A program made the translations under genes and the position numbers. The notes under the pieces were generated by a model that was not told the DNA's origin, ran no database searches, and was given only the letters and a program-made list of their open reading frames with translations. From the NCBI GenBank assembly GCA_019237315.1, contig JAFAHG010000164.1:1-37842 (forward strand): a DNA stretch of 37,842 bases. The letters run 5' to 3'. Source of the stretch: Actinomycetota bacterium (GTDB lineage: Bacteria > Actinomycetota > Thermoleophilia > Gaiellales > Gaiellaceae). Numbering within the stretch: position 1 is the stretch's first letter; every line of letters begins with the position of its first letter. Below are positions 19,001 through 37,285 of the stretch, in pieces.

Positions 19001-22000
19001 GTGCACGGCGGTCGGTTCCACGGGGGGATCAGACGGTACGGAGCCCTGGCCGCGCTCGTTTCCGTTCTCGGTCTTGGATCGGCGGTCCCGAGTGTTGCCT
19101 CCGGCCCGCCGCCCACTCCCGCGCCGCAACTTGCAGCCGGCGCATCCCACACCTGTCTCGTCGTCGGCGCGGCGGTCGAGTGCTGGGGTAACAACGAGAC
19201 CGTTGCGGGAGCGCTGACGAATGGCGGCCCGCTCGGGGACGGAACGACGACGAACAGCGCCGTCCCGGTTGCGGCCTCGGTGCTGTCGGGCCAGGCGCAA
19301 GCGGTTGTGGCGGGCATCTACCACACGTGTGTGCTCACGACGACGGAAGCGGTCCAGTGCTGGGGCTTCAATCGCGAGGGCGAATCGAGTCCGGTTCCGG
19401 CCGGCGCCTATAAGCAGGTCTCGGCCGGCTGGTACTACACCTGCGGGCTGACCGACGCCGGCGGCGTTCGCTGCTGGGGCGAGGACCCGTCGCACGCATA
19501 CGTCCTCGGCGATGGGTCGTTGACGAGCGGCGTCGCGGCGATCGCGACCGGCGCCTACAACGTCTGCGCGCTGATGGCGAGCGACGGGAGCGTCGAGTGC
19601 TGGGGGAACGACGACTTCGGACAGCTCGGGCCGGGCGGGACGACATCCCATCCGGTGCCGGTGCCGGGGCTCACCGGCGTGCAGGCGATCACCGCGGGTG
19701 GCGGTTTCATGTGCGCCCTGGAGGGCGACGGAAGCGTCTGGTGCTGGGGGACTAACAACCAGACGCCGTTCATCAACTTCGGTTTCCCGCCGACGGAGCT
19801 GATCGCGAGTGGTGCAACGGCGATCGACGCGTTCTACAACCACGCCTGCGCTGTCGTCTCCGGGGGAGTCCGGTGCTGGGGCGACAACGCGTTCGGGCAG
19901 CTCGGGAACGGGACGACGACTGGGAGCAGCGCACCGGTACAGGTCAGCGGCCTGACGAACGGCGCCGTCGCCGTTGCGGCCGGCTACGACCACTCGTGCG
20001 CGCTGCTGGTCGGCGGCGCCGTCAAGTGCTGGGGGAGCAACTCCGCCGGCCAGCTCGGAAACGGGACGACCGCCGACAGTCTTACACCCGTCACCGTCTC
20101 GCTGCCCGTCGCTCCTCCACTTCCTCCGAGCTTCGGTCCCGCGACCGCCTTCGCGGCGCCGACGAGCCCCCAGGATGTCGTGCTCGCGGATCTGAACGGC
20201 GACGGGAAGCTCGACGCCGTCGTCTCGGACGAGCTCTCGAACAGCGTCGATGTCCTGCTCGGCAACGGCGACGGGACGTTCCAGACCGCTACCTCGTACC
20301 CGGCGGGCAGCTACCCCGGCGGCGTCGCCGTCGGAGACGTGAACGGAGACGGCAGGCCGGACATGGTCGTTGCCGATTCCGGCGCGGACGAGGTTTCTGT
20401 CCTGCTTGGCAACGGGGACGGGACGTTCCAGCCGGCCACGTCATTCTCGGCGGGTGGTGCGGGCGCACTCCAGGTGGCGCTCGCAGACGTCAACCGGGAC
20501 GGAAAGCTCGACATCGTAGTAGCCGGTTTCGGCGGCGTCGCGGTGTTGCTCGGGAACGGGGCGGGATCGTTCGGCGCTCCGACGACGTACGCCACGCCGT
20601 CGACCGCGTACAACCTCGCAGTCGGCGACGTGAACCGCGACGGTAAGGTCGACATCGTTACGGCCGACCAGTTCACGGGCGTCGGCGTGTTGCTCGGGAA
20701 CGGCGACGGCACCTTCCAGCCGTTGCACGAATACTCGGCAAACGCAGGCTCGGGGCAGGACCTGACCGCCGTTTCGATCGGCGATTTGAACGGGGATGGC
20801 AAGCCGGATCTCGCCGTCTCGAACTACGACGGCAACGAGGTCGACGTCATGCTCGGCAACGGCGACGGCAGCTTCGGCGCGCCGACGGCTTACGCAGCCG
20901 GCACGTCCCCTCAGGCCGGCGTGATCGCGGACGTCACCGGTGACGGCCGGCCTGACATCGCGGTCGCAGGCGGTGTCGTCTCGGTGCTTTCAGGGAACGG
21001 CGACGGGACGTTCCAGCCGGCGGTGGAGTATCCCGTCGGACGTCACCCGAACGCCGTTGCCCTGGGCGATGTGAACGGCGACGGCAAGCCCGACCTCGTC
21101 AGCGCGGACGCCGACACGAACACCATCTCGGTTCTCCTCAACACCGCCGTCGGCGTGAGCTTCGCAACGGCCCCCCCGACGATCACGACGACGACCCTCC
21201 CCGACGCGCCGATCCCCGCCGCGGGGAGCGCGAGCTACGCCGCCTCCGTGTCGGCGACCGGCGGGATGTTGCCCTACACGTTCACCGTGACCTCCGGTAG
21301 CCTCCCGCCGGGCTTGACGCTCGACCCCGACGGTTCGATTACCGGAACGGTCTCGAGCTCAGCGACGCCGGGAACGTCGTCGTTCACCGTCAGCGTGACC
21401 GGCGACGACGGCCTCAGTTCGAGCCAGGCTCTCTCGATCACGCTTCTCCCTCCGCCCGATGCGGACCTCGCGATCGGGGTGGCGTCCGGCGTGGTGGTCG
21501 AGTCGAATTACGCGACGGCGGTGAAGTTCGCCGCGCCGGCGGCGTCTGACGAGGGTGGTGAGTCGCCGCCGGTTGTGTGTGATCCGGCGTCGGAGGACAC
21601 GTTCCCGATCGGGTCGTTCACGGTGTCGTGTAGCGCGTCGGATCCGGACGACGCGAACAGTCCGGTGTCGTCGGAATTCTCGGTGACGGTGAAGCCGTTG
21701 CCGCCGGCCTTGGTGGTTCCAGGGCTCGTGTCGACGCCGACCGACCCGGCGGTGGTGCCGGTGTCGGGCACGGTGGCGCCGGGGGCGACGGTGTCGATCG
21801 ACGACGGCTCGACGCTGGTGGGGACTGCGACGGCTGATTCGAGCGGGAGCTTCACGACGTCGGTTGCGTTGAGCGTCGGGTCGCATTCGCTGACCGCGAC
21901 GCAGTCGGTGAACGGCGAGACGAGCGACGTCTCCGGCCCGAGCTTCGTCTCAGTCACGCTCGACGACGATCACGCTCTCACCGTGCCGGCGGACGTCGTC

Positions 22001-23911
22001 GTCGATGCGAACGGCATCACGGGCACAGTCGTCTCGTATGCCGGAGTCGCCGCGTCCGACGAAGGGGGAGAAACGCCGCCGGTGACCTGCAACCCGCTCT
22101 CCGGCTCCCTCTTCCCGATCGGGAAGACCGCCGTGACGTGCACGGCGTCCGACCCAGACGACGCGAACAGCCCCGTGACGGGGATCTTCAACGTGACGGT
22201 CAGGCCGCTGCCGCAGACCATCACCTTCCCGGCGCTCGCGAACACCTACCTCGGCGCTGCGCCGCCGACTGTCAGCGCGACTGCGTCGTCGAGCCTCACC
22301 GTCACCTTCACGACGACGACTCCGCTGACCTGCACGTCCGGCGGGACGAACGGGGCAACGATCACCCTCGCCGCCGTCGGAACCTGCACGGTTCGCGCGA
22401 GCCAGGCCGGGAATGCGAGCTACGCACCTGCTTCGCCCGTCGAGCGGAGTTTCGCCGTCGTGCCCGCCTCGCCCACCCTTTCGGCGCCGGCGACGTCGTT
22501 CTCGACGACCGTCCTCGTGAGCGGCGCAGGCCTGCCGAACGCCTCGGTGTCGATCTATGACGGCTCAACCCTGGCCGGTACGGCGACCGTCGACCCCTCC
22601 GGTGCGTTCGCGGCGACGCTGACCCTGGCCAACGGTACGCACACGTTGACGGCGACGCAGACCGTAAGCGGCCTCACCAGCGCGCCGTCGGCGGCGGTCA
22701 CCGTCAGCGTCGTTCTTGCCGACACGCCCACGCTGCACCTGCCGGGTGATCTCGTCGTTGAGGCCAGGAACGCCTCAGGCGCAGTGGTGCGCTTCACGGC
22801 GACGGCGACCGACCCGGTGGACGGGACGGATCGTGTGTCGTGCAATGCCCGGTCCGGGTCGACGTTCCCGCTCGGCGTGACGGCGGTGACGTGCTCTGCG
22901 ACGAACGCGCACGGCGTGACGGCAACAGGTGGATTCTCCGTCACCGTGCAGGACACGACGCCGCCGGTGTTGCGGCTGCCGCCCGACCGCGTGCGCGAGG
23001 CGACCGGCCCTGACGGACGTGTGGTGCGCTTCCATGCGACGGCAGTGGATGCAGTCGACGGTTCAGTGGCGGTGACATGCGTGCCGGCATCCGGCTCGAC
23101 GTTCCCGCTCGGAGCGACGACGGTTTCCTGCTCGGCGAAAGATTCGGCTGGGAACAGCGCGACGGGAACGTTCTCGGTGACCATCGTGGACACGACACCC
23201 CCGCGGTTGCACCTGCCCGGCCGAGTGATGGCCGAGGCGACCGGGCCGTCGGGCGCACCGGTGTCGTTCACGGCGACGGCTGACGACCTTGTCAGCGGTT
23301 CGGTGCCGGTCGCCTGCGTGCCGTCCTCCGGTTCGACGTTCCCGCTCGGGCAGACGACGGTCTCGTGCTCGGCCACCGATGCGGCTGGGAACACGGCAAC
23401 GGGGAGCTTCCAGGTCGTCGTGCGCGACACGACCGCGCCGGTCCTGACCCTCCCGGCGAGCGCCCAGGCCGAGGCAGTAGGCCCGACCGGGGCGCCCGTC
23501 TCGTTCACCGCCTCGGCGAGCGACGCGGTTGACGGCGTCGTGCCGGTGACGTGCTCGCCCGCTTCCGGTTCCGTCTTCCGCGTCGGGACGACGACGGTCA
23601 GATGCTCGGCAACCGACGCGCACGGTAATCGCGCAACTGGGAGCTTCGGTGTCACCGTGACCGACTCGACGCCGCCGACACTGCACCTGCCGGCGAACCT
23701 GTCGGTGCAGGTGTCAGGACCGGCGACGAGCTCGGTGGTCAGGTTCACCGCGACCGCGACCGACCTGGTCGACGGCTCTGACCCCGTCAGCTGCGCGCCG
23801 GCGTCGGGCTCGAGCTTCCCGATCGGCACGACCACGGTGAACTGCAGCTCCCACGACGCTCACGGCAACGCGACGACCGGCAGCTTCACCGTCACCGTCT
23901 CGCACCGTTAG
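19001..23911 (+). CDS. Secreted RCC1 / FG-GAP / HYR multidomain protein
   Basis: The 1636-residue protein starts with a signal peptide (GALAALVSVLGLGSAVPSVAS). Residues about 45-370 hold seven RCC1 repeats (HTCxL...VxCWGxN..GQLGNGT), enough for one seven-bladed propeller. Residues 380-716 hold seven FG-GAP/VCBS repeats with calcium-binding DxNxDGxxD loops (DLNGDGKLDAVV) and LLGNGDGTFQ ends, a second seven-bladed propeller. A putative Ig domain (PYTFTVTSGSLPPGLTLD) follows, then HYR 1, an Ig-like domain, HYR 2, a TITFPALANTYLGAAPPTV segment, another Ig-like domain, and HYR 3-7 (res 1243-1636), each with a cysteine pair. No membrane anchor or sorting signal ends the protein (FTVTVSHR). It is probably exported and adhesive or ligand-binding; the ligand is unknown. 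GTG start; own promoter upstream. Confidence 0.88.
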   Translation: MHGGRFHGGIRRYGALAALVSVLGLGSAVPSVASGPPPTPAPQLAAGASHTCLVVGAAVECWGNNETVAGALTNGGPLGDGTTTNSAVPVAASVLSGQAQAVVAGIYHTCVLTTTEAVQCWGFNREGESSPVPAGAYKQVSAGWYYTCGLTDAGGVRCWGEDPSHAYVLGDGSLTSGVAAIATGAYNVCALMASDGSVECWGNDDFGQLGPGGTTSHPVPVPGLTGVQAITAGGGFMCALEGDGSVWCWGTNNQTPFINFGFPPTELIASGATAIDAFYNHACAVVSGGVRCWGDNAFGQLGNGTTTGSSAPVQVSGLTNGAVAVAAGYDHSCALLVGGAVKCWGSNSAGQLGNGTTADSLTPVTVSLPVAPPLPPSFGPATAFAAPTSPQDVVLADLNGDGKLDAVVSDELSNSVDVLLGNGDGTFQTATSYPAGSYPGGVAVGDVNGDGRPDMVVADSGADEVSVLLGNGDGTFQPATSFSAGGAGALQVALADVNRDGKLDIVVAGFGGVAVLLGNGAGSFGAPTTYATPSTAYNLAVGDVNRDGKVDIVTADQFTGVGVLLGNGDGTFQPLHEYSANAGSGQDLTAVSIGDLNGDGKPDLAVSNYDGNEVDVMLGNGDGSFGAPTAYAAGTSPQAGVIADVTGDGRPDIAVAGGVVSVLSGNGDGTFQPAVEYPVGRHPNAVALGDVNGDGKPDLVSADADTNTISVLLNTAVGVSFATAPPTITTTTLPDAPIPAAGSASYAASVSATGGMLPYTFTVTSGSLPPGLTLDPDGSITGTVSSSATPGTSSFTVSVTGDDGLSSSQALSITLLPPPDADLAIGVASGVVVESNYATAVKFAAPAASDEGGESPPVVCDPASEDTFPIGSFTVSCSASDPDDANSPVSSEFSVTVKPLPPALVVPGLVSTPTDPAVVPVSGTVAPGATVSIDDGSTLVGTATADSSGSFTTSVALSVGSHSLTATQSVNGETSDVSGPSFVSVTLDDDHALTVPADVVVDANGITGTVVSYAGVAASDEGGETPPVTCNPLSGSLFPIGKTAVTCTASDPDDANSPVTGIFNVTVRPLPQTITFPALANTYLGAAPPTVSATASSSLTVTFTTTTPLTCTSGGTNGATITLAAVGTCTVRASQAGNASYAPASPVERSFAVVPASPTLSAPATSFSTTVLVSGAGLPNASVSIYDGSTLAGTATVDPSGAFAATLTLANGTHTLTATQTVSGLTSAPSAAVTVSVVLADTPTLHLPGDLVVEARNASGAVVRFTATATDPVDGTDRVSCNARSGSTFPLGVTAVTCSATNAHGVTATGGFSVTVQDTTPPVLRLPPDRVREATGPDGRVVRFHATAVDAVDGSVAVTCVPASGSTFPLGATTVSCSAKDSAGNSATGTFSVTIVDTTPPRLHLPGRVMAEATGPSGAPVSFTATADDLVSGSVPVACVPSSGSTFPLGQTTVSCSATDAAGNTATGSFQVVVRDTTAPVLTLPASAQAEAVGPTGAPVSFTASASDAVDGVVPVTCSPASGSVFRVGTTTVRCSATDAHGNRATGSFGVTVTDSTPPTLHLPANLSVQVSGPATSSVVRFTATATDLVDGSDPVSCAPASGSSFPIGTTTVNCSSHDAHGNATTGSFTVTVSHR

Positions 23912-24634: not shown

Positions 24635-27600
24635 ATGGGTGTCGCACAGCGGCGCCGCGAGTCGGGGGACTGCGGCGACGGCCACGGTGGGAGCAGCACG
24701 GTGACGCAGTTGCGAGCCGTGCAGCGCCGGCGTGGACCGCTTGCGATGTGGATCGTCGCCGTGGCGATCCTCGTCTGGGGGCTCGCGTTGTCGAGCTCCG
24801 CGGGCGCGAGCGATCCGTTCGGCGGGCCGACGCACACCTATACGAACATCGCGTTCGGCGGCAACCAGTGCACGGGGACATTCGTGACGACCGCGAACGG
24901 CAGCTTCTTCGAGAGCCAGCGCAACTGCACAAACCCGAGCCTGAACAGCGACGACCTTCTTTTCGTCCCGGGCGACTTCAGCGCGTGTCCGGGGTCGCCC
25001 TTCAGCGTCGACAACACCTACAACACGAGTCAGGATCCGCAGCTCGTCGCGAACACCGGCGGCGGCATTCCGGCGAACACGCCCTACACCGCCTGCTTCT
25101 ACAACGCGAGCGCGGACACCGGTCCGGCGGTCACGCTGTCGGGTGTCGCCTCCGGCTCGGTGTATCCGTCCACGGCGCAGCCGACGCCGTCGTGCACAAC
25201 GACGGCGGGGACGTTCGGCGTCTATCAGAACGCGACCCCGTCGACCGCCTCGTCGGGCGACGCATTCACCGCGACGTGCTCGGGTGGGGAAGACGACTTC
25301 CTCGCGGCCGCCACGCCGGTGAGCGTCAACTACTCGGTGGCGTTGCCTTCCACGTGTAGCGGGATCAACGCGGGCACGTCGCTCACGGACTGCGGCTTCG
25401 AGACGCCGGTCGTCGGCGCGGGCAGCTTCCAGTACAACCTGACCGGCACGCCGTGGACATTCAGCGGGAAGGCCGGCATTTCTGGCAACGGCTCGGGGTT
25501 CACGGGCGGCAACCCGAATGCGCCCGAGGGATCGCAGGTGGGGCTCATCCAACAGGGACCGTCGCTCGGCGGCGGCTCGATCTCGCAGTCGGTCACGGGC
25601 TGGAGCTCCGGGAAGCTCTACACGCTGACGATGAGCATCGCGCAGCGGCTCGCGAACTGCGGATTCGTCGGGTCGATTCCCGGCTGCCAGCCGGAGGACT
25701 TCAAGGTCCTGCTCGACAGCACCGTGATCGGGACGTTCACGGCGAGCAGCGGCACCTACACCGACGTCTCGACCTCGCCGTTCACCGCCTCGACCGGTAC
25801 GCACACCCTGACGATCTCTGGCATCGACAGCGCCGGTGGAGACGACTCCGTCTTCATCGACTCGCTGCGTCTCACCTCGACCGACATCGTCGTCGTCTCG
25901 CCCACACTCTCGACGACGCCGACCGGCGGAGTTGCGTTGGGCGGAGCGGTGTTCGACACCGCGACGCTCGCGGGGGCGCAGAACCTCCTCGGCGGCGACC
26001 AGATCACCTTCAAGCTCTACGGGCCGTCGGCCTCTGCCAACTGCAACGGCACCCCGGTCTATACGCAGACCGTCGCCGTGACGGGGAACGGCAACTACGG
26101 CTCGGGGAACTTCTTCCCGACCACGCCGGGTACCTACTGGTGGACCGCGAGCTTCAACGGCGACGCGGACAACAACCCGGCGTCGAGCGGCTGCGGCTCG
26201 GAGTCGGTCACCGTTTCCGCGGCGTCGCCGACGCTGACGACGACGCCGTCGGCGGGGATCGCGCTCGGCGGGACGGTGTCGGACACGGCGACGATCGCCG
26301 CCGGGCAGGGCCTGCAGGCGGGCGACACGATCACGTTCCGGCTCTACGGCCCGTCGACCTCGGCAAGCTGTTCCAGCGCGATCTTCACCCAGTCGGTGAG
26401 CGTGTCAGGCAACGGCAGCTATACCTCCCCGACCTTCGCCCCGACGGCCGCCGGTACCTATTGGTGGACGGCGAGCTTCAGCGGTGACGCGAACAACAAC
26501 GCCGTCGCGAGCAGCTGCGGCACGGAGTCGGTGGTCGTCTCGAAGGCCACGGCGACGCTCTCGACGACCCCGTCTGCGGGCTACACGTTCGGAAGCGGCG
26601 GCACGCCGGGGACGATCTCGACGGTTGCGGGCATCGGCTCGGGTGGGTTCTCGGGCGATGGCGGGCCGGCGACGAGCGCGCAGCTCTGGCAGTCGTTCCA
26701 GACGGCCTTCGACGCGAGCGGCGACATGCTGATCGACGACTACCAGAACAACCGGGTGCGGCTAGTGGCGGCGGCGACGTGCTCGAGCAACTGCCCCTAC
26801 GGACTTGCCTCGATGACGAAGGGTTCGATTTACACCGTCGCCGGTAATGGGAGCGGCGGTCTTTCGGGCGACGGCGGAGCGGCGACGAGCGCCGCGCTCA
26901 ACTCGCCGGTCGGAGTTGCGGTCGACGCGAGCGGCGATCTGCTGATCGACGACTACCTGAACAACCGCGTGCGGCTGGTGGCGGCGGCGTCGTGTTCGAG
27001 CGGCTGTCCGTACGGGCTCGCGTCGACGACCAAGGGGTTCATCTACACCGTCGCAGGGACCACGGCCGGTTACTCGGGCGACGGGGGGCCGGCGACGAGC
27101 GCTGCGATCAACTTCCCGTTGGGCATCGGCATCGACACGAACGGGGATCTGCTCATCGGCGACTACGGCAACAATCGCGTGCGGCTCGTCGCAGCGGCGA
27201 CCTGTTCGAGCGGCTGCCCGTACGGGCTCACCTCGACGACGAAGGGTTTCATCTACACCGTTGCCGGCATCGGGAGCCCCGGCTTCTCGGGTGACGGCGG
27301 CCCGGCGACGAGCGCCGTGCTTTCGTACCCATACGGCGTCGGCGTCGACGCGCGGGGCGATCTCCTGATCGCCGACGCCCCGAACTACCGCGTGCGGTTG
27401 GTCGCGGCGGCGTCGTGCTCGAGCGGCTGCCCGTATGGGTTCGCTTCGCTGACGAGGGGCTCGATCTACACCGTTGCGGGCAACGGAAGCGCCACCGATT
27501 CGGGCGACGGTGGAGCAGCCACGAGCGCAGGACTCAACTACCCCATCGGAGTGACCGCCGACGCGGCCGGCGACATCCTCATCACCGACAGCGGCAACCG

Positions 27601-30600
27601 CGTGCGGTTGGTCGCGGCCGCCTCGTGTTCGAGCGGCTGCCCGTACGGGCTCGCGTCCACGACGAAGGGCTCCATCTACACGGTCGCGGGCACGGGGAGC
27701 TTCGGCTACTCGGGCGACGGCGGGCCGGCGACGAGCGCCCAGCTCGCCAGCCCATGGTCATCGACGGTCGACGCGAGCGGCAACCTGTTCATCTCCGACC
27801 GCTCCAACAACCGGGTGCGGATCGTGCAGGGGGCGACCGCCGTGAGCGACCAGGCGACGCTCGCGGGCGGCGCCTCGCCTTCCGGCTCGATCACGTTCAA
27901 CCTATACGGCCCCTCGAGCACGGCGAACTGCACCGGCACGCCGATCTACACGAACGGCGTCGGCGTCGCGGCGAACGGCAGCTACGGCTCCGGCTCGTAC
28001 GCGCCAACCACCGCCGGCACCTACTGGTGGACGGCGAGCTACAGCGGCGACGGGAACAACAACGCGGCATCGAGTAGCTGCGGGTCGGAGTCGGTGGTCG
28101 TCGCGAAGGCTTCCCCGACGATCTCGACGACGCCCTCGTCGGGGATCACGCTCGGCGGCGGCAGCGTGAGCGACCAGGCGACGCTCGCCGGCGGCAGCGG
28201 CCTCGCGGGTGGCTCGATCACGTTCAACCTCTACGGGCCGTCGTCGTCGCAGGTCTGCACCGGCACGCCGGTCTACACGGACGCGGTGAGCGTCGCGGGT
28301 AACGGCAGCTTCGGCTCGGGCAACTACAGCCCGACGGCGGCCGGTACCTACTGGTGGTCGGCGAGCTTCAGCGGCGACACGAACAACAACTCCGTCGTGA
28401 GCGTCTGCGGTCAGGAGTCGGTCACGGTCGGAAAGGCCTCGCCGACGCTGAGCACGACGCCGTCGGCGAACACCGTGCTCGGCGCGTCCGTGTCCGACCA
28501 GGCGACCCTCGCGGGCGCGCAGAGCGTCGTGAGCGGCGACACGATCGCCTTCAACCTCGTCCGCTACACGCTCGGGTCGCCGAGCCCGACCGCCGCTCAG
28601 GTCTGTGCCGGAACCGGCACCGGCTTCGTCGGCACGGTGTTCACCCCGACCGTGAGCGTCTCGGGCAACGGCATCGTCGGCTCCGGCACCTACACGCCGG
28701 CCGCGACGGGCAACTACTACTGGTGGGCGAACTTCGCCGGCGACGCGAACAACAACGCCGCCAGTACGTGCACTGTCGTCGCCGGGGTCACGGTCTCGAA
28801 GGCTTCGCCGACGATCGCGACGACGCCGTCGGCCGGCCTGACCCTCGGCGGCTCGGGCGGCGGTGCGACGATCTCGACCGTTGCCACGTCCGTGATCCCC
28901 TTCGCGGTGGCGGTCGACGCGAACGGCGACTCGTTGATCGCGGACGTCAACCAGGACCGGATCTGGCTCGTGGCAGCGTCGTCGTGTTCGAGCAACTGCC
29001 CGTACGGGCTCTCCTCGATGACCAAGGGTTCGACGTACACCGTCGCGGGGACGGGTGCTTACGGTTTCTCGGGCGACGGCGGGCCTGCGACGAGCGCGAG
29101 CCTCTTCGGCCCGTACGGGGTGACGGTCGACGCGAGCAACAACATGCTGATCGCCGACGAGGGAAACAACCGGATCCGGCTGGTCGCTGCCGCGTCGTGC
29201 TCGAGTGGCTGTCCCTACGGTCTCGCGTCGATGACGAAGGGTTTCATCTACACGGTCGTTGGCAGCGGAGGGGGCGGTTTTTCCGGCGACGGTGGGCCCG
29301 CGTCGAGCGCCACACTCTTCACCCCGCTCGCGGTCGCATTCGACGCGCGCGGCGACCTGCTGATCGCTGACTACAACAACAGCCGGATTCGGCTGGTCGC
29401 AGCTGCGTCGTGCTCGAGCGGCTGTCCTTGGGGGCTGTCGTCGATGACGCAGGGCTTCATCTACACGGTCGCGGGTAGCGCGTCGGCGGGCTTCGCGGGT
29501 GACGGCGGGCCCGCGACGAGTGCTCGGCTCGACAACCCGCGCGCGGTCGCCGTCGATCCGAGTGGCGACCTCCTCGTCTCCGACTCGAGCAACTATCGGG
29601 TGCGCCTCGTCGCCGGTGCGTCGTGCTCGAGCGGCTGCCCGTTCGGGCTCGCGTCGACGACCAAGGGATCGATCTACACGGTGGCAGGGACCGGCGGCTC
29701 TGGCTTCTCGGGCGACGGCGGGCCGGCGACGAGCGCAACGCTCTCCTTTCCGATCGGAGTGACGAGCGACGCGAGCGGCGACCTCGTGATCGGCGACTAC
29801 GAGAACTACCGGGTGCGTTTGGTCGCGGCCTCGGCGTGTTCGAGCGGCTGCCCGTTCGGACTCGCCTCGATGACGAAGGGGTCGATCTACACGGTCGCGG
29901 GCAACGGCAACAGCAGCCCCTCGGGCGACGGCGGGCCGCCGACGAGCGCCGGAATCGGCTACCCGATGGCGGTGGCACTCGACGCGCACGGGAACCTGCT
30001 GATCGGCGACGTGGCCGACGCCCAGTTGCGGAAGGTACAGGCCGGAGGAAGCGCGTTGAGCGACCAGGCGACGCTTGCCGGCGGGGTCTCACTCTCGGGC
30101 GGCTCGATCACCTTCAACCTCTACGGACCGTCCAGCTCCGCCGATTGCACAGGCGCCCCGGTCTACAGCCAGGCGGCGAGCGTGACCGGCAACGGCCCGT
30201 ACACCTCGGGCAGCTATACCCCGACGGCGGCCGGGACGTACTGGTGGACGGCGAGCTTCGCCGGCGATGGGAACAACAACGCGGTCGCGAGCAGCTGCGG
30301 CACGGAGTCGGCGGTCGTGGCCAAGGCCTCGCCCACGATTTCGACGACGGCGTCCAGCGGTGTCACGCTCGGCGCCGGCAGCGTCAGCGACCAGGCCACC
30401 CTCGCCGGCGGCGTGAGCCTCGGCGGCGGGTCGGTCACCTTCAATCTCTACGGGCCGTCGAGCTCGGCCGTCTGCACCGGTACGCCGGCCTACACGCAAA
30501 CAACGAGCGTCTCCGGCAACGGCAGCGTCGGCTCGGGCAACTTCACACCGACCGCGGCAGGGACCTACTGGTGGACGGCGAGCTTCGGCGGCGACGCGAA

Positions 30601-33600
30601 CAACAACAGCGCGGCGAGCGCGTGCGGGGCCGCTTCCGTCACCGTCGCGAAGGCCACGCCGACATTGAGCACGACCTCTCCGGCGAACATCGTCCTCGGC
30701 GGGGTGGTGTCGGACGCCGCGACGCTCGCCGGTACGCAGAGCGTCGTGACCGGCGACTCGATCACGTTCCGGCTGTACGGACCCTCGGCCACCGCGAACT
30801 GCGCCGCCGCGATCTCGACGCAGTCGGTGAACGTGGCGGCGGACGGCAGCTACATCTCCCCGGTCTTCACGCCGCCTGCGGCGGGCACGTACTGGTGGAC
30901 GGCGAGCTTCAGCGGAGACGCGAACAACAATACGATCACGACTTCGTGCGGAGCCGAGTCGGTCGCCGTGGCGAAGGCCTCGCCGACCCTGGCCAACACG
31001 CCGTCGCCCGGCATCCCGCTCGGCGGCGGCACGCTCAGTGACACGGCGACGATCGCGGCCGGCGTCGGACTTGGCGGCGGCACGCTCACGCTCAAGGTCA
31101 TCCGCTACGCGCTCGGGTCGGCGACCCCGACCGGCGCGCAGGTCTGCGCGGCAGGGCCCGTCTACTCGGTGTTCGTGCACGGCGTGACGCACAACGGCGA
31201 TTACGTCTCGGGCAGCTATACGCCGCTCGCAACGGGCAACTACTACTGGGTGGCGCTCTTCAACGGCGACGCCAACAACAACGCGGTCGACACCTGCGCC
31301 GCGCTGTCCGAGGTCACGGTCTCGCCCGCCTCGCCGACGCTGACGACGACGCCGTCGGCTCCGGTCGTCCTCGGCGCAGGGTCGCTGAGCGATCAGGCGA
31401 CGCTCGCCGGCGGCGTCGGTCTCGGCGGCGGCTCGATCACGTTCGACCTCTACGGGCCCTCTGCGACCGCGGACTGCTCCGGTCTTCCCGTCTACACGTC
31501 GACAAGCGGCGGAATCTCCGCGAACGGCAACGTCGGCTCGGGCAGCTTTTCGCCGACCGCGGCAGGGACGTACTGGTGGACGGCGAGCTTCGGCGGCGAT
31601 TCGAACAACAACGGCGCCGCGACGAACTGCGGCGACGAGTCCGTCACCGTCTCGCCCGCCTCGCCGACGCTGACGACGACGGCGTCGCCGACGATCGTCC
31701 TCGGCGGCACGGTGGGCGACCTCGCCACCCTCGCCGGCGGCTTCAGCCTCGCGTCGGACTCGATCACGTTCAACCTGTATGGGCCCGCCGTGTTCGCGGA
31801 CTGCACGGGGACGCCGGTCGACACCGAGACGGTGAGCGGCGTGTCGAGCAACGGTGTCTATCCGTCGCCGAACTTCACGCCGACAGCGGCCGGCACCTAC
31901 TGGTGGACGGCGAGCTTCAGCGGCGACGGCGACAACAACGCCGCCGCAACGACGTGCGGCCTCGACTCGGTCGTCGTCCAACTCGCGACGCCGACCCTCA
32001 CCTCGACCGCGTCGAACGGGATCGTGCTCGGCGCCGGCACCGTGAACGACCAGGCGACGCTCGCCGGGGGCGTGAGCCTCAGCGGCGGCTCGATCCTGTT
32101 CAGCCTCTACGGGCCCTCCGCGACCGCCGACTGCACGGGAACGCCGGTCTACACGAACACCGCGCCCGTCTCCGACAACGGCAGCTTCGGCTCGGGTGAC
32201 TTCACACCGCTCGACGCCGGCACCTACTGGTGGACGGCGAGCTTCAGCGGCGACGGCAACAACAACCCTGTCACGACGAACTGCGGCGACGCGTCGGTCG
32301 CCGTTGCGAAAGCGACGCCGTCGATCTCGACGGTGTCCGACCCGATCGCGCTCGGCTCGAACGGCGGCGACGCCGCGGCCGTGCTCGGGGCTCAGTCCCC
32401 GCTCGGCGGCGACACGGTCACCTTCGACGTCTACGGGCCGTCCCCGACGGCCGACTGCACCGGCACGCCGGTGTACACCCAGATCGCCCCGGTCGCAATC
32501 GGTCGGCACAAGCCCGGCGCCAGCCCCGTCGTTCGTGCGAGCTCCGGGCACTTCGCCCCGACCGCCGCCGGCACCTACTGGTGGACGGCGAGCTTCAGCG
32601 GCGACGCGAACAACAACGCGGCTTCGACGAGCTGCGGCGACGAGTCGGTCGCCGTGCCGCCGGCCTCCCCGACGCTGGCCAACACGCCGTCGGGCGACAT
32701 CGTGCTCGGCGGCACGGTGTCCGACACCGCGGCGCTCGCCGGGACGCAGTTCCTGACCGGCGGCGACGCGATCACGTTCGCGCTCTACGGCCCGTCCATC
32801 AAGGAGGACTGCACGAACCAGGTGTTCGCGCAGACGGTCGACGTCGCCGCCGACGGAAGCTACGCCTCCACGGCGTTCACGCCGACGGCGGCCGGCAGGT
32901 ACTGGTGGGCGGCGAGCTTCAACGGCGACGCGAACAACAACCCGGCGGCCACGAACTGCGCCGACGGGTCGGTCGTCGTGTCGAAGGCATCGCCAACCAT
33001 CTCCACGACGGCCTCGGCTCCGATCGTGCTCGGGAATTCGCTGAGTGATACGGGGACGCTCGCCGGCGGCGTCGACCTCGGCGGCGGCGCGATCGAGTTC
33101 AACCTGTACGGCCCATCGGCGACCGCAGACTGCTCGGGCCTGCCGCTCTACACGTCGACGGTGGGCGGAATCGCCTCGAACGGCGACGTCTCCTCGGGCA
33201 GCTTCTCCCCGACGGCGGCCGGGACGTACTGGTGGACGGCGAGCTTCGGTGGTGACGCCAACAACAACGGCGTGACGACGAACTGCGGCGACGAGTCGGT
33301 GGTCGTCTCGCCCGCATCACCCACGCTGACGACGACGGCGTCGGGGCCAATCGTCCTCGGCGGCACCGTCGGTGACCTCGCGACGCTGGCCGGCGGCCTC
33401 GACTTCGCGAGCGACTCGATCACGTTCAACCTGTACGGGCCGTCTCTGTTCGCGAACTGCTCGAACGCTCCCGTCTACACGCAGACGGTCGGCGGCGTTT
33501 CGGCGAACGGCGTCTACGCCTCCGCGAACTTCACGCCGACAGCGGTCGGCACCTACTGGTGGACAGCGAGCTTCGGCGGCGACGGGAACAACAACCCGGC

Positions 33601-36600
33601 GGCGACGAGCTGCGGCGGTGCGTCCGTCGTCGTCTCGCCCGCCTCGCCGACGCTCGCGACCGTCGCCTCCGCCGGCGTGGTTCTCGGCGCCGGTTCGGCG
33701 AACGACCAGGCGACGCTCGCGGGCGCCCAGGATCTCCTCGCCGGTGACGCCGTCACGTTCGACCTGTATGGCCCGTCGGCTTCCGCGAGCTGCTCGGGCT
33801 CCCCGGTGTACACGCAGACGGTGCCGGTGTCGGCGAACGGCTCGTTCGGCTCTGGCAGCTTCACGCCGGTCGCCGCGGGTACGTACTGGTGGACGGCGGC
33901 CCTCGCCGGTGACGCGAACAACAACGCCGCCGCGACGACCTGCGGGGACGCATCCGTCCTCGTGTCGAAGGCCACGCCCACGCTCTCCGGCAACCCGTCG
34001 GCCGCGATCGTCCTCGGGGGCGGCACGGTGAGCGACCAGGCGAGCCTCGCCGGAGCGCAGCAGCTCCTGAGCGGTGACGCGATGACGTTCAGCCTCTACG
34101 GCCCGTCGACCTCCGCGAATTGCTCCGGCAACCCGGTGTACACGCAGACAGTGCCGGTATCGGCGAACGGTTCGTTCGGCTCCGGCAGCTTCACGCCGGC
34201 CGCCGCCGGCACGTACTGGTGGACTGCCGCCTACAACGGGGACGCGAACAACAACGGAGCTACGACGAGCTGCAATGCAGAGCCGGTCGTGGTCTCGCCC
34301 GCGTCGCCGACGCTTTCCACGGTCGCCTCGGCCGGGACCGTCCTCGGTGGAGCGGTCTCCGATACGGCGACGCTCGCGGCCGCGCAGCACCTGCTGAACG
34401 GTGATGCGATCACGCTCAGCCTCTACGGCCCGTCGGCATCCGCGAGCTGCTCGGGCAGCCCGGTGTACGCGCGGACGCTGAGCGCGACCTCGAACGGAAC
34501 CTACGGCTCCGGCAGCTTCACGCCGGTCGCCGCCGGCAAGTACTGGTGGACCGCCTCCCTCGCCGGAGACACGAACAACAACGCCGTCGCGACGAACTGC
34601 GGCGACGCCTCGGTCGTCGTGTCGCCCGCGTCCCCGACGCTCTCGACGACCCCGTCCGGCACGATCGTCCTCGCGAGCGGCACCGTGAGCGACCAGGCGA
34701 CGCTTGCGGGCGCGCAGGATCTGCTCAACGGCGACTCGATCACGTTCAAGCTGTACGGGCCGTCGGCGTCGGCGGTCTGCACCGGCACGCCGGTGTACAC
34801 CGCTTCGGCAGCCGTCTCCGCGAACGGCGCCTACTCCTCGCCGAGCTTCTTCCCGGGCGCGGCCGGCACGTACTGGTGGACGGCGAGCTTCAACGGAGAC
34901 TCGAACAACAACGCGGCCGTGAGCGGCTGCGGCGCCGAGTCGGTCGTCGTCTCCCAGACGACGCCCACGCTGACGACGGCGCCGACGCCGGCGATCGTTC
35001 TCGGCAGCGGCACCGTGAGTGACCTCGCGACGCTCGCCGGCGGCGCGAACCTCGGCCTCGACTCGATCACGTTCAACCTGTACGGGCCGTCCACCTTCGC
35101 GGTCTGCACCGGCACGCCGGTGTACACGCAGACCGTGAGCGGCGTGACCGGGAACGGTCTCTACTCGACGACCCCCTTCACGCCGCTGAGCGCGGGCACG
35201 TACTGGTGGACGGCGAGCTACAGCGGCGACTCCAACAACCATGCCGCGGTGAGCGGCTGCGGCGCCGAGTCGGTCACGGTCGCCGCCGACTCGCCGACGC
35301 TCGGCACGACGCCGTCCGGAACGGTCGCGCTCGCCGGAACGGTCTCCGACGCGGCGGCGCTGACGGGCGCGCACAGCATCCTCGGCGGCGACACGGTCGC
35401 GTTCAGCCTCTACGGGCCGTCGGCAACCGCCCTCTGCACGGGTGCTCCCGTGTACATCTCGAGCGGGAACGTGACGACGAGCGGAACGGCCGCCTCCGGC
35501 AGCTTCGTCCCGGCAGCGGCGGGCACGTACTGGTGGACGGCGAGCTTCGCCGGCGACGTGAACAACAACGCCGCGGCGAGCGCCTGCGGCTCCGAGAAAG
35601 TCGTCGTCTCCCCGGCCTCGCCGACGATCACGACCTCCTCTTCGGGCGGCATCGCCCTCGGCGGAACGGTTTCCGACTCGTCCGGTCTCGCCGGCAGCGT
35701 CAACCTGACGGGTGCCGGCACCGTCACGTTCAACCTCTACGGCCCTTCCGCCACGGCCGTATGCACCGGGACGCCTGTCTACACGAAGACGCTGAGCGCC
35801 GTCTCGACGAACGGGCCCTTCGCCTCGGGCGCGTACGCGCCGGTTTCGACGGGCACGTATTGGTGGACGGCGACGTTCAGCGGGGACGCGAACAACAACA
35901 CCGCCGCGACCGCTTGCGGCAGCGAGTTCGTGACCGTGATCCCGGCGAACGCCAACCAGACCGTCGGCGCCGGCCAGACGCTTCAGCTCTCCGGCGGCAC
36001 GCTCCACGGCACGGTGACGGTGCAGCCCGGCGGGACGCTCCTCCTGAACGGCGGCACGCTGACCGGCCAGGTGAACGCCACCGGCGGAACCGTCAACGTC
36101 TCGAGCGGCAGCCTGAACGGCAACGTTCAGCTCTCCTCCGGCGCGACGCTCAACCTCTCCGGCGGCACGATCGCCGGCAACGTCCAGGGTCAGGACACCT
36201 CCGGCGTGTCGATCACCGGCGGCAGCGTGCAGGGGAACGTCCAGACCCAGATCGGGCCGGTCACCGTCGGCTCGGGCGCGACCGTGACGGGCAACGTGCA
36301 GACGCAGGGCGGCTCGATCAACGTCGGCGGCAGCGTCTCGGGCGACGTCCAGTTCAACGCGCCCGGCAACTCGACGGCCTGCGCGACCGTCGCCCTTGCG
36401 TCGAGCGCCTCGGTGGCCGGAAACGTGAGCGTCCAGAACCTCCCGTCGTGCGGTAGCTCGTCGGTGTCGGTCTCGGGTTCGATCGGCAAGGACGTGAAGC
36501 TGCAGCAGGTTGCCGCCGGCGGCTCGGTCACGATCGCGAACGCCGCCGTCGGCGGCCAGGTGCAACTGCAGCAGGTGACGGCGTCGTCGGTGTCGGTGAC

Positions 36601-37285
36601 GGGCGTGACCGGCTCCAAGGATCTGACGCTGAACCAGGTCGGCGCCGTCAACGGCCCGATCGTGGTCGGGAACAACAAGATCGCCGGCCAGATCCAGATC
36701 CAGGAGAACAACACGAGCGTTCCGGGCCTCACCGTGAACGGCAACACGGCCGGGAACGGGCTGAGCGTGCAGCAGGTCACCTCGACGGGCACGCTCTCGG
36801 TGCAGAACGACACGCTCACCGGCGGCAACCTCCAGGTGCAGAACGTGTCGGCGCCCGGTATCACGGTGAACGGCAACCAGCTGACGGGGAACAACCAGAA
36901 CCTGACGGTGATGCAGTCGACGTCGAGCGGGTCGCCGCTCAGCGTCTCGAACAACAGCCTCGGCGGGCAGCTGCAGGTGCAGAACGACACGGCCCCGGCT
37001 GCTCTCGTCAACGCGAACACGGCCGGCCAGCTGACCGTCCAGCAGATCACCGTCTCGAGCGCGGCGGTGCAAGTCGAGCACAACACCGTCGGCGGCCAGG
37101 CGCAGGTCCAGCAGAACGCGTGGTCGCCGACGAAGACGGCGGCCGCGGTGATCGTCGCCGCGAACACAGTCGGCGGGAACCTCTCCTGCAAGAACGACAC
37201 CGGCCCGGCGACCGACCTCGTCTCGGGGACGCCGACGCCAAACACGGTCACGGGTCAGAAGCAGAACGAGTGCGCGACGCTGTAG
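24635..37285 (+). CDS. Giant secreted Ig-repeat protein with two nested NHL propellers and a beta-helix
   Basis: The 4216-residue protein has a hydrophobic export segment (MWIVAVAILVWGLALSSSAG, residues 38-57). The start may instead be GTG 24701, preceded by GGTGGGAG, which removes 22 residues. Residues 60-420 form an N-terminal region including CGFETPVVGAGSFQYN, like a DUF642/galactose-binding module. Then come 23 Ig-like repeats of about 109 residues, each with GTYWWTASFSGDANNN and a cysteine pair (CTGTPVYT, SCGxESV). Two blocks of six NHL repeats (residues about 659-1065 and 1411-1802) are inserted inside two of them. Residues 3770-4216 are a right-handed beta-helix (GxVxVxxGGTLxLxGG rungs) ending in GNLSCKND and NTVTGQKQNEC. 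No sortase motif or membrane anchor is seen. A surface or matrix adhesin is likely; the ligand is unknown. Confidence 0.88.
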   Translation: MGVAQRRRESGDCGDGHGGSSTVTQLRAVQRRRGPLAMWIVAVAILVWGLALSSSAGASDPFGGPTHTYTNIAFGGNQCTGTFVTTANGSFFESQRNCTNPSLNSDDLLFVPGDFSACPGSPFSVDNTYNTSQDPQLVANTGGGIPANTPYTACFYNASADTGPAVTLSGVASGSVYPSTAQPTPSCTTTAGTFGVYQNATPSTASSGDAFTATCSGGEDDFLAAATPVSVNYSVALPSTCSGINAGTSLTDCGFETPVVGAGSFQYNLTGTPWTFSGKAGISGNGSGFTGGNPNAPEGSQVGLIQQGPSLGGGSISQSVTGWSSGKLYTLTMSIAQRLANCGFVGSIPGCQPEDFKVLLDSTVIGTFTASSGTYTDVSTSPFTASTGTHTLTISGIDSAGGDDSVFIDSLRLTSTDIVVVSPTLSTTPTGGVALGGAVFDTATLAGAQNLLGGDQITFKLYGPSASANCNGTPVYTQTVAVTGNGNYGSGNFFPTTPGTYWWTASFNGDADNNPASSGCGSESVTVSAASPTLTTTPSAGIALGGTVSDTATIAAGQGLQAGDTITFRLYGPSTSASCSSAIFTQSVSVSGNGSYTSPTFAPTAAGTYWWTASFSGDANNNAVASSCGTESVVVSKATATLSTTPSAGYTFGSGGTPGTISTVAGIGSGGFSGDGGPATSAQLWQSFQTAFDASGDMLIDDYQNNRVRLVAAATCSSNCPYGLASMTKGSIYTVAGNGSGGLSGDGGAATSAALNSPVGVAVDASGDLLIDDYLNNRVRLVAAASCSSGCPYGLASTTKGFIYTVAGTTAGYSGDGGPATSAAINFPLGIGIDTNGDLLIGDYGNNRVRLVAAATCSSGCPYGLTSTTKGFIYTVAGIGSPGFSGDGGPATSAVLSYPYGVGVDARGDLLIADAPNYRVRLVAAASCSSGCPYGFASLTRGSIYTVAGNGSATDSGDGGAATSAGLNYPIGVTADAAGDILITDSGNRVRLVAAASCSSGCPYGLASTTKGSIYTVAGTGSFGYSGDGGPATSAQLASPWSSTVDASGNLFISDRSNNRVRIVQGATAVSDQATLAGGASPSGSITFNLYGPSSTANCTGTPIYTNGVGVAANGSYGSGSYAPTTAGTYWWTASYSGDGNNNAASSSCGSESVVVAKASPTISTTPSSGITLGGGSVSDQATLAGGSGLAGGSITFNLYGPSSSQVCTGTPVYTDAVSVAGNGSFGSGNYSPTAAGTYWWSASFSGDTNNNSVVSVCGQESVTVGKASPTLSTTPSANTVLGASVSDQATLAGAQSVVSGDTIAFNLVRYTLGSPSPTAAQVCAGTGTGFVGTVFTPTVSVSGNGIVGSGTYTPAATGNYYWWANFAGDANNNAASTCTVVAGVTVSKASPTIATTPSAGLTLGGSGGGATISTVATSVIPFAVAVDANGDSLIADVNQDRIWLVAASSCSSNCPYGLSSMTKGSTYTVAGTGAYGFSGDGGPATSASLFGPYGVTVDASNNMLIADEGNNRIRLVAAASCSSGCPYGLASMTKGFIYTVVGSGGGGFSGDGGPASSATLFTPLAVAFDARGDLLIADYNNSRIRLVAAASCSSGCPWGLSSMTQGFIYTVAGSASAGFAGDGGPATSARLDNPRAVAVDPSGDLLVSDSSNYRVRLVAGASCSSGCPFGLASTTKGSIYTVAGTGGSGFSGDGGPATSATLSFPIGVTSDASGDLVIGDYENYRVRLVAASACSSGCPFGLASMTKGSIYTVAGNGNSSPSGDGGPPTSAGIGYPMAVALDAHGNLLIGDVADAQLRKVQAGGSALSDQATLAGGVSLSGGSITFNLYGPSSSADCTGAPVYSQAASVTGNGPYTSGSYTPTAAGTYWWTASFAGDGNNNAVASSCGTESAVVAKASPTISTTASSGVTLGAGSVSDQATLAGGVSLGGGSVTFNLYGPSSSAVCTGTPAYTQTTSVSGNGSVGSGNFTPTAAGTYWWTASFGGDANNNSAASACGAASVTVAKATPTLSTTSPANIVLGGVVSDAATLAGTQSVVTGDSITFRLYGPSATANCAAAISTQSVNVAADGSYISPVFTPPAAGTYWWTASFSGDANNNTITTSCGAESVAVAKASPTLANTPSPGIPLGGGTLSDTATIAAGVGLGGGTLTLKVIRYALGSATPTGAQVCAAGPVYSVFVHGVTHNGDYVSGSYTPLATGNYYWVALFNGDANNNAVDTCAALSEVTVSPASPTLTTTPSAPVVLGAGSLSDQATLAGGVGLGGGSITFDLYGPSATADCSGLPVYTSTSGGISANGNVGSGSFSPTAAGTYWWTASFGGDSNNNGAATNCGDESVTVSPASPTLTTTASPTIVLGGTVGDLATLAGGFSLASDSITFNLYGPAVFADCTGTPVDTETVSGVSSNGVYPSPNFTPTAAGTYWWTASFSGDGDNNAAATTCGLDSVVVQLATPTLTSTASNGIVLGAGTVNDQATLAGGVSLSGGSILFSLYGPSATADCTGTPVYTNTAPVSDNGSFGSGDFTPLDAGTYWWTASFSGDGNNNPVTTNCGDASVAVAKATPSISTVSDPIALGSNGGDAAAVLGAQSPLGGDTVTFDVYGPSPTADCTGTPVYTQIAPVAIGRHKPGASPVVRASSGHFAPTAAGTYWWTASFSGDANNNAASTSCGDESVAVPPASPTLANTPSGDIVLGGTVSDTAALAGTQFLTGGDAITFALYGPSIKEDCTNQVFAQTVDVAADGSYASTAFTPTAAGRYWWAASFNGDANNNPAATNCADGSVVVSKASPTISTTASAPIVLGNSLSDTGTLAGGVDLGGGAIEFNLYGPSATADCSGLPLYTSTVGGIASNGDVSSGSFSPTAAGTYWWTASFGGDANNNGVTTNCGDESVVVSPASPTLTTTASGPIVLGGTVGDLATLAGGLDFASDSITFNLYGPSLFANCSNAPVYTQTVGGVSANGVYASANFTPTAVGTYWWTASFGGDGNNNPAATSCGGASVVVSPASPTLATVASAGVVLGAGSANDQATLAGAQDLLAGDAVTFDLYGPSASASCSGSPVYTQTVPVSANGSFGSGSFTPVAAGTYWWTAALAGDANNNAAATTCGDASVLVSKATPTLSGNPSAAIVLGGGTVSDQASLAGAQQLLSGDAMTFSLYGPSTSANCSGNPVYTQTVPVSANGSFGSGSFTPAAAGTYWWTAAYNGDANNNGATTSCNAEPVVVSPASPTLSTVASAGTVLGGAVSDTATLAAAQHLLNGDAITLSLYGPSASASCSGSPVYARTLSATSNGTYGSGSFTPVAAGKYWWTASLAGDTNNNAVATNCGDASVVVSPASPTLSTTPSGTIVLASGTVSDQATLAGAQDLLNGDSITFKLYGPSASAVCTGTPVYTASAAVSANGAYSSPSFFPGAAGTYWWTASFNGDSNNNAAVSGCGAESVVVSQTTPTLTTAPTPAIVLGSGTVSDLATLAGGANLGLDSITFNLYGPSTFAVCTGTPVYTQTVSGVTGNGLYSTTPFTPLSAGTYWWTASYSGDSNNHAAVSGCGAESVTVAADSPTLGTTPSGTVALAGTVSDAAALTGAHSILGGDTVAFSLYGPSATALCTGAPVYISSGNVTTSGTAASGSFVPAAAGTYWWTASFAGDVNNNAAASACGSEKVVVSPASPTITTSSSGGIALGGTVSDSSGLAGSVNLTGAGTVTFNLYGPSATAVCTGTPVYTKTLSAVSTNGPFASGAYAPVSTGTYWWTATFSGDANNNTAATACGSEFVTVIPANANQTVGAGQTLQLSGGTLHGTVTVQPGGTLLLNGGTLTGQVNATGGTVNVSSGSLNGNVQLSSGATLNLSGGTIAGNVQGQDTSGVSITGGSVQGNVQTQIGPVTVGSGATVTGNVQTQGGSINVGGSVSGDVQFNAPGNSTACATVALASSASVAGNVSVQNLPSCGSSSVSVSGSIGKDVKLQQVAAGGSVTIANAAVGGQVQLQQVTASSVSVTGVTGSKDLTLNQVGAVNGPIVVGNNKIAGQIQIQENNTSVPGLTVNGNTAGNGLSVQQVTSTGTLSVQNDTLTGGNLQVQNVSAPGITVNGNQLTGNNQNLTVMQSTSSGSPLSVSNNSLGGQLQVQNDTAPAALVNANTAGQLTVQQITVSSAAVQVEHNTVGGQAQVQQNAWSPTKTAAAVIVAANTVGGNLSCKNDTGPATDLVSGTPTPNTVTGQKQNECATL
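26609..27829 (+). repeat. NHL propeller 1, six repeats
   Basis: Six blades of about 68 residues follow the pattern IYTVAGxGxxGFSGDGGPATSA, then a VDASGDLLIDD strand, then NNRVRLVAA. Blades 1-5 are linked by CSSGCPYGLASxTKG. The block sits between FGSGG and VSDQATLAGG, which in other Ig repeats are adjacent. Confidence 0.85.
28865..30040 (+). repeat. NHL propeller 2, six repeats
   Basis: Six blades, the first lacking the SGDGG segment (TISTVATSVIPFAVAVDANG), the last ending QLRKVQ. Linkers CSSGCP(Y/F/W)G repeat five times. It is inserted at the same point of an Ig repeat (LGGSGG before, LSDQATLAGG after) as propeller 1. Confidence 0.85.

Follow-up and report, generated by a model that had tools for sequence, protein, structure and literature searches.

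The question raised by this locus is how two NHL propellers came to lie within an array of Ig-like repeats, and whether each of them interrupts an Ig-like domain or simply stands between two neighbouring ones. The gene concerned occupies positions 24635 to 37285 of the window, that is, the whole stretch of 37,842 nucleotides analysed here, and consists of one open reading frame, uninterrupted by any stop, for a multidomain protein of 4216 aa. Its hydrophobic N-terminal segment, MWIVAVAILVWGLALSSSAGA, suggests that this protein is secreted. The N-terminal region (24635 to 25894; plus strand, as for all features of the gene) comprises this putative signal segment and a possible HpiC1-like beta-sandwich, for which the Pfam family PF22825 gives 23.5 bits, below its cut-off of 27. 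It is followed by an array of 23 Ig-like repeats (residues 421-3770; 25895 to 35944), delimited by repeat cutting and alignment and recovered as 23 copies by profile A6, and by a C-terminal repetitive region (35945 to 37282) that may form a bactofilin-like beta-solenoid, with PF04519 giving 21.5 bits, below its cut-off of 27.9. The adjacent upstream gene, located on the same strand at window positions 19001-23911, encodes a 1636-aa propeller-rich protein with RCC1 and FG-GAP repeats and HYR/He_PIG Ig-like domains, and these two neighbouring giant propeller-plus-Ig genes could make up a locus for surface proteins.

When the frame is cut at the repeat starts, 21 of the 23 Ig-like repeats are continuous, with lengths of 108-122 aa. 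Two cysteines, C50 and C100 of the unit, do not vary among the 17 aligned plain repeats (window 25895-35944), and they are likely to form one disulfide per Ig bead. The repeats probably have a fold related to Big_3_5 (PF16640, bacterial Ig-like domain group 3), even though they are not to be filed as members of this family, whose cut-off of 35.5 bits is not reached (18.3-18.4 bits). The search with the Ig-repeat profile returned no solved relative (best E=1.2). Two further features of the array were observed. A second segmental duplication spans window positions 31328-33640, where repeats 2232 and 2342 match repeats 2785 and 2894 at 81% and 76%, respectively. Additionally, two longer repeats (28436-28801 and 30977-31327) have a common insert, VRYTLGSPSPTAAQ in one and IRYALGSATPTGAQ in the other, and pair in the tree.

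The two remaining repeats measure 521 aa (residues 638-1158) and 508 aa (residues 1390-1897). In both of them a block of six NHL blades lies at the identical point, between strands A/A' (TTPSAGxTxG) and strand B (VSDQATLAGG). The first split repeat begins with strands A/A' and a GSGGTPG linker (residues 638-659; 26546 to 26611), identified by alignment to the 21 plain repeats and by a DSSP pattern (EEEEEE/EE) whose offsets agree with those repeats, and resumes with strands B to G (residues 1066-1158; 27830 to 28108), which match profile positions 12 to 109 with E=5.1e-41. The second one begins with strands A/A' and a GSGGGA linker (residues 1390-1411; 28802 to 28867), identified again by alignment to plain repeats and DSSP pattern, and resumes with strands B to G (residues 1804-1897; 30044 to 30325), matching profile positions 15 to 109 with E=1.2e-41. 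Every plain repeat of the array is matched by the plain-repeat profile from position 1 or 2, and the bodies of the split repeats only from position 12 or 15. The missing unit positions 1-16, strands A/A', precede the insert, keep the family consensus, and score inside the range of the plain repeats. Segment A of repeat 1390 retains P3 and L15 and is mid-range in conservation (mean column frequency of 0.61), and that of repeat 638 has lost both residues, which are invariant in plain repeats, and stands at the low end (0.50). The original prediction, which placed whole six-blade NHL blocks inside two otherwise ordinary Ig repeats at positions 26575-30060, is thus borne out by the repeat cutting and the plain-repeat profile, and its coordinates are correct to within about 40 bases.

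The inserts themselves are NHL propellers by several measures. The Pfam family NHL (PF01436) matches with E=3.6e-35 and 118.7 bits, against a cut-off of 20, and five single blades in the contig score above this cut-off. Propeller 1 (residues 660-1065; 26612 to 27829) and propeller 2 (residues 1412-1803; 28868 to 30043) were each cut into six blades, the first blade of propeller 2 being shortened by the absence of the GDGGPATSAQL stretch. Each block is predicted to form 24 strands, as expected for a closed ring of four-stranded blades, and Foldseek matches both to Pizza6, with TM scores by target length of 0.82-0.88 for propeller 1 and 0.85-0.88 for propeller 2; the comparison with PknD gives 0.81 by target length. 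Both blocks start with the outer (d) strand of the last blade and end with strands a-c of that same blade, so that, by strand order, the first strand completes the last blade, and one blade contains both ends of the block. This arrangement suits insertion into a loop, and short Gly/Ser-rich linkers flank each propeller on both sides. Inserted domains generally have close termini (PMC13114784). Their usual size is 50-200 aa (PMC13114784), which the propellers, with about 400 aa, exceed; we count this against the nesting explanation. A CSSxC pair is present in the c-d loop of blades 1-5 of both blocks and could form a disulfide in each of these loops; neither the last blades nor the nearest outside relative have it.

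Whether the propellers are truly nested depends on where an Ig unit begins. The unit boundary in a tandem array is arbitrary from sequence alone, and just 16 or so residues of the unit precede the insert, so that the segment called strand A might be part of the preceding Ig domain, with the propellers lying between neighbouring domains and no nesting at all. This phase can be read from copies that have no neighbour. In single copies (L051, L097) and arrays (L052, L053, L055, L068) from other genomes, as well as in a single copy elsewhere in the source genome (C187), strand A comes first, and the last strand gives way to unrelated sequence. Both ends of the 23-repeat array agree with this phase, the first repeat starting with VSPTLSTTPTGG and the last one ending in VTVIPANANQ. 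Since in all of these strand A stands ahead of the first body and not after the last one, it belongs to the body that follows, and the propeller interrupts the unit. A mis-phased array is therefore highly improbable. That single copy in the source genome is a divergent Ig domain of the array's family, located after a Thr-rich stretch in a 612-aa frame on the minus strand (L117, G000:C187:3500-7500); the start of this frame looks TadE/TadG-like by reading only.

Even with the phase settled, strand A may have been lost from the fold of the two split repeats, so that the body would fold on its own and the residues ahead of the propeller would be a mere linker. The divergence of segment A in repeat 638, which is among the least conserved, would agree with such a loss, as would the low confidence of the models (about 44-48) at the linker that follows strand A'. 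Against it stand the conserved segment of repeat 1390 and the AlphaFold2 models, which are of moderate confidence (pLDDT 82 and pTM 0.65 for block 2; pLDDT 81 and pTM 0.62 for block 1). For block 1, the alignment contained whole repeats and whole neighbours. For block 2, the Ig rows were trimmed so that strand A was unlinked from the body except through the other split repeat. Alignments A1, A2 and A4 were kept out of the folding because outside NHL rows had slid onto Ig columns. In both models the split repeats have the strand pattern of the adjoining plain ones, with strands at offsets 4-9 and 13-14, even where no alignment link to the plain-repeat bodies existed. As read from this DSSP pattern, strand A is predicted to pair with strand B of its own domain, and we consider the loss of strand A unlikely. 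Structure prediction, which had been proposed originally as a check of the nesting, thus returns split and plain repeats alike in strand pattern and 24 strands per NHL block, and together with the phase test it lends good support to the domain-in-domain reading.

Nested propellers at the same point of two repeats could have arisen twice or once. The original prediction took them for two independent blocks accepted by a permissive loop, and the divergence of the two split units, with 67% identity over the whole unit, and the different length of blade 1 in each block would be in line with two separate insertions. However, all 12 blades form one clade (support 98/97) against the ten blades of the closest outside NHL protein, found in genome G678. 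The blades also match by position between the blocks, with a permutation rank of 0.8-1.4% when six blades are used and of 3-8% with the first five. The motif CSSN occurs in both blocks and there in blade 1 only, and the series of blade ends, S,F,F,S,S, is the same in the two. The flanking Ig repeats pair as well (1159 with 1898, at 77%; 1268 with 2115; 530 with 2007), and GSGG is common to both linkers. The AU test of whether the two split repeats are sisters, with p=0.20, does not discriminate. The single clade, the positional match of the blades, and the paired flanks lead to one insertion followed by segmental duplication, which is the simpler account and, on these comparisons, most likely the correct one. 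Two separate insertions are rather unlikely, and the independence of the blocks is not supported. One insertion and a duplication, in turn, say little about a site that repeatedly accepts plug-ins.

Two other ideas about the origin of the blocks were considered and dropped. Base composition does not point to a recent import of the NHL blocks, their GC content being 0.69, against 0.69-0.71 in the Ig repeats, and their third-position GC merely slightly lower (0.88-0.89 against 0.91-0.95). The resemblance of YTFGSGGTPG at the first junction to GTFFGQAMSAG had the look of a remnant blade; T14, though, is common to the plain repeats 1159 and 1898.

Further nested cases were searched for in the genomes of relatives, of the family, the order, the class, and the phylum, and of the family of G678, amounting to about 760 distinct genomes (1350 with overlaps). 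These contain NHL-only or Ig-only proteins and no second case of an NHL block inside an Ig-like repeat. In a local check, 43 HSPs extended over one of the query's NHL/Ig junctions; by reading, they look like register slips rather than nested cases. Some of them place extra blades on Ig sequence (TVAG on ATLAGG, or the c-d blade loop on SAGYTFGSGG), and others have different sequence after the last blade, or align an Ig repeat to a blade (L053/L060). No relative was found in viral contigs. Among plasmids, 18 records have partial NHL matches, several of them annotated as RICIN domain-containing, and none covers the Ig part.

Domains nested in other folds are familiar elsewhere: integrin beta subunits have a domain inserted in their Ig-like hybrid domain, and prolyl oligopeptidases have a propeller inserted in another fold. 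An NHL propeller inside an Ig-like domain was not found in the literature searched, which comprised open-licence papers only, and to that extent the expectation that the architecture had not been described holds for the NHL/Ig pair. It does not hold for the design as such, given that split Ig-like domains of RTX adhesins orient inserted ligand-binding domains outward, as in MpIBP with PA14 and FrhA with PBD and SBD-UKD (PMC10865825). As in those domains, here an Ig-like domain is interrupted by a complete second domain. Contrary to the lectin or peptide-binding inserts of the RTX adhesins, the insert of the 4216-aa protein is a six-bladed NHL propeller, and the nested unit has been duplicated; no calcium-binding repeat (RTX) family is among the Pfam matches of the whole protein or its C-terminal region. 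The nested propellers are a new combination, built on a design for which other bacterial adhesins already provide examples.

Other proteins combine similar parts in a different order. BapP from Pseudoalteromonas tunicata, an adhesin with a demonstrated role in biofilm formation, joins 12 Ig-like beta-sandwich repeats to a predicted beta-propeller (PMC12153261). Its propeller is N-terminal, five-bladed, and located beside the Ig array, whereas those studied here are six-bladed and lie inside the repeats. The closest solved NHL propeller is that of a teneurin-like protein, 9ifo (E=7.6e-56 by sequence; 37% identity in the fold match). A bacterial Ig-like domain is present, too, in the Bacillus teneurin-like protein (PMC13018210). 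In teneurin-like proteins, however, the NHL propeller follows the FN-plug and precedes the YD shell in sequence order (PMC13018210), and in the 4216-aa protein just NHL and TEN_NHL of this set are matched by Pfam, with no YD/RHS family in the whole protein. Free-standing NHL propellers of relatives (G678 L104, G021 L009, and those of the PknD type) have the same type of blade and stand un-nested, directly after a signal peptide or a kinase domain. They start and end at similar places, as in PGTIATVAG...NNRVRIVYGG of G678, in whose blades the c-d loop is of similar length and lacks the CSSxC cysteines.

Taken together, we consider it fairly likely that the protein is a stalk of 23 Ig domains and that an entire NHL propeller of six blades was at one time inserted into one of them, within the A'-B loop. 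The propeller-bearing segment would later have been duplicated, resulting in two propellers in two split Ig domains. Both ends of each propeller would lie at one point, around which the Ig domain is predicted to close through the short Gly/Ser linkers. The Ig array would act as the extender of a stalk-like secreted protein, and the propellers would probably be two binding modules projecting laterally from the stalk axis, by analogy with the inserts of the split Ig-like domains in RTX adhesins. A general acceptor role of the A'-B loop in this Ig family, with different lineages inserting different whole domains there, propellers included, and turning stalk beads into display platforms, is very unlikely.

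In RTX adhesins, split Ig-like domains display lectin-type or peptide-binding inserts; the finding extends this display to a whole propeller of ~400 residues, in a different kind of protein. It also suggests that a nested unit can be copied whole during repeat expansion. Moreover, a single chain here contains both plain and split repeats, which are natural pairs for testing how the Ig fold tolerates a large insert.
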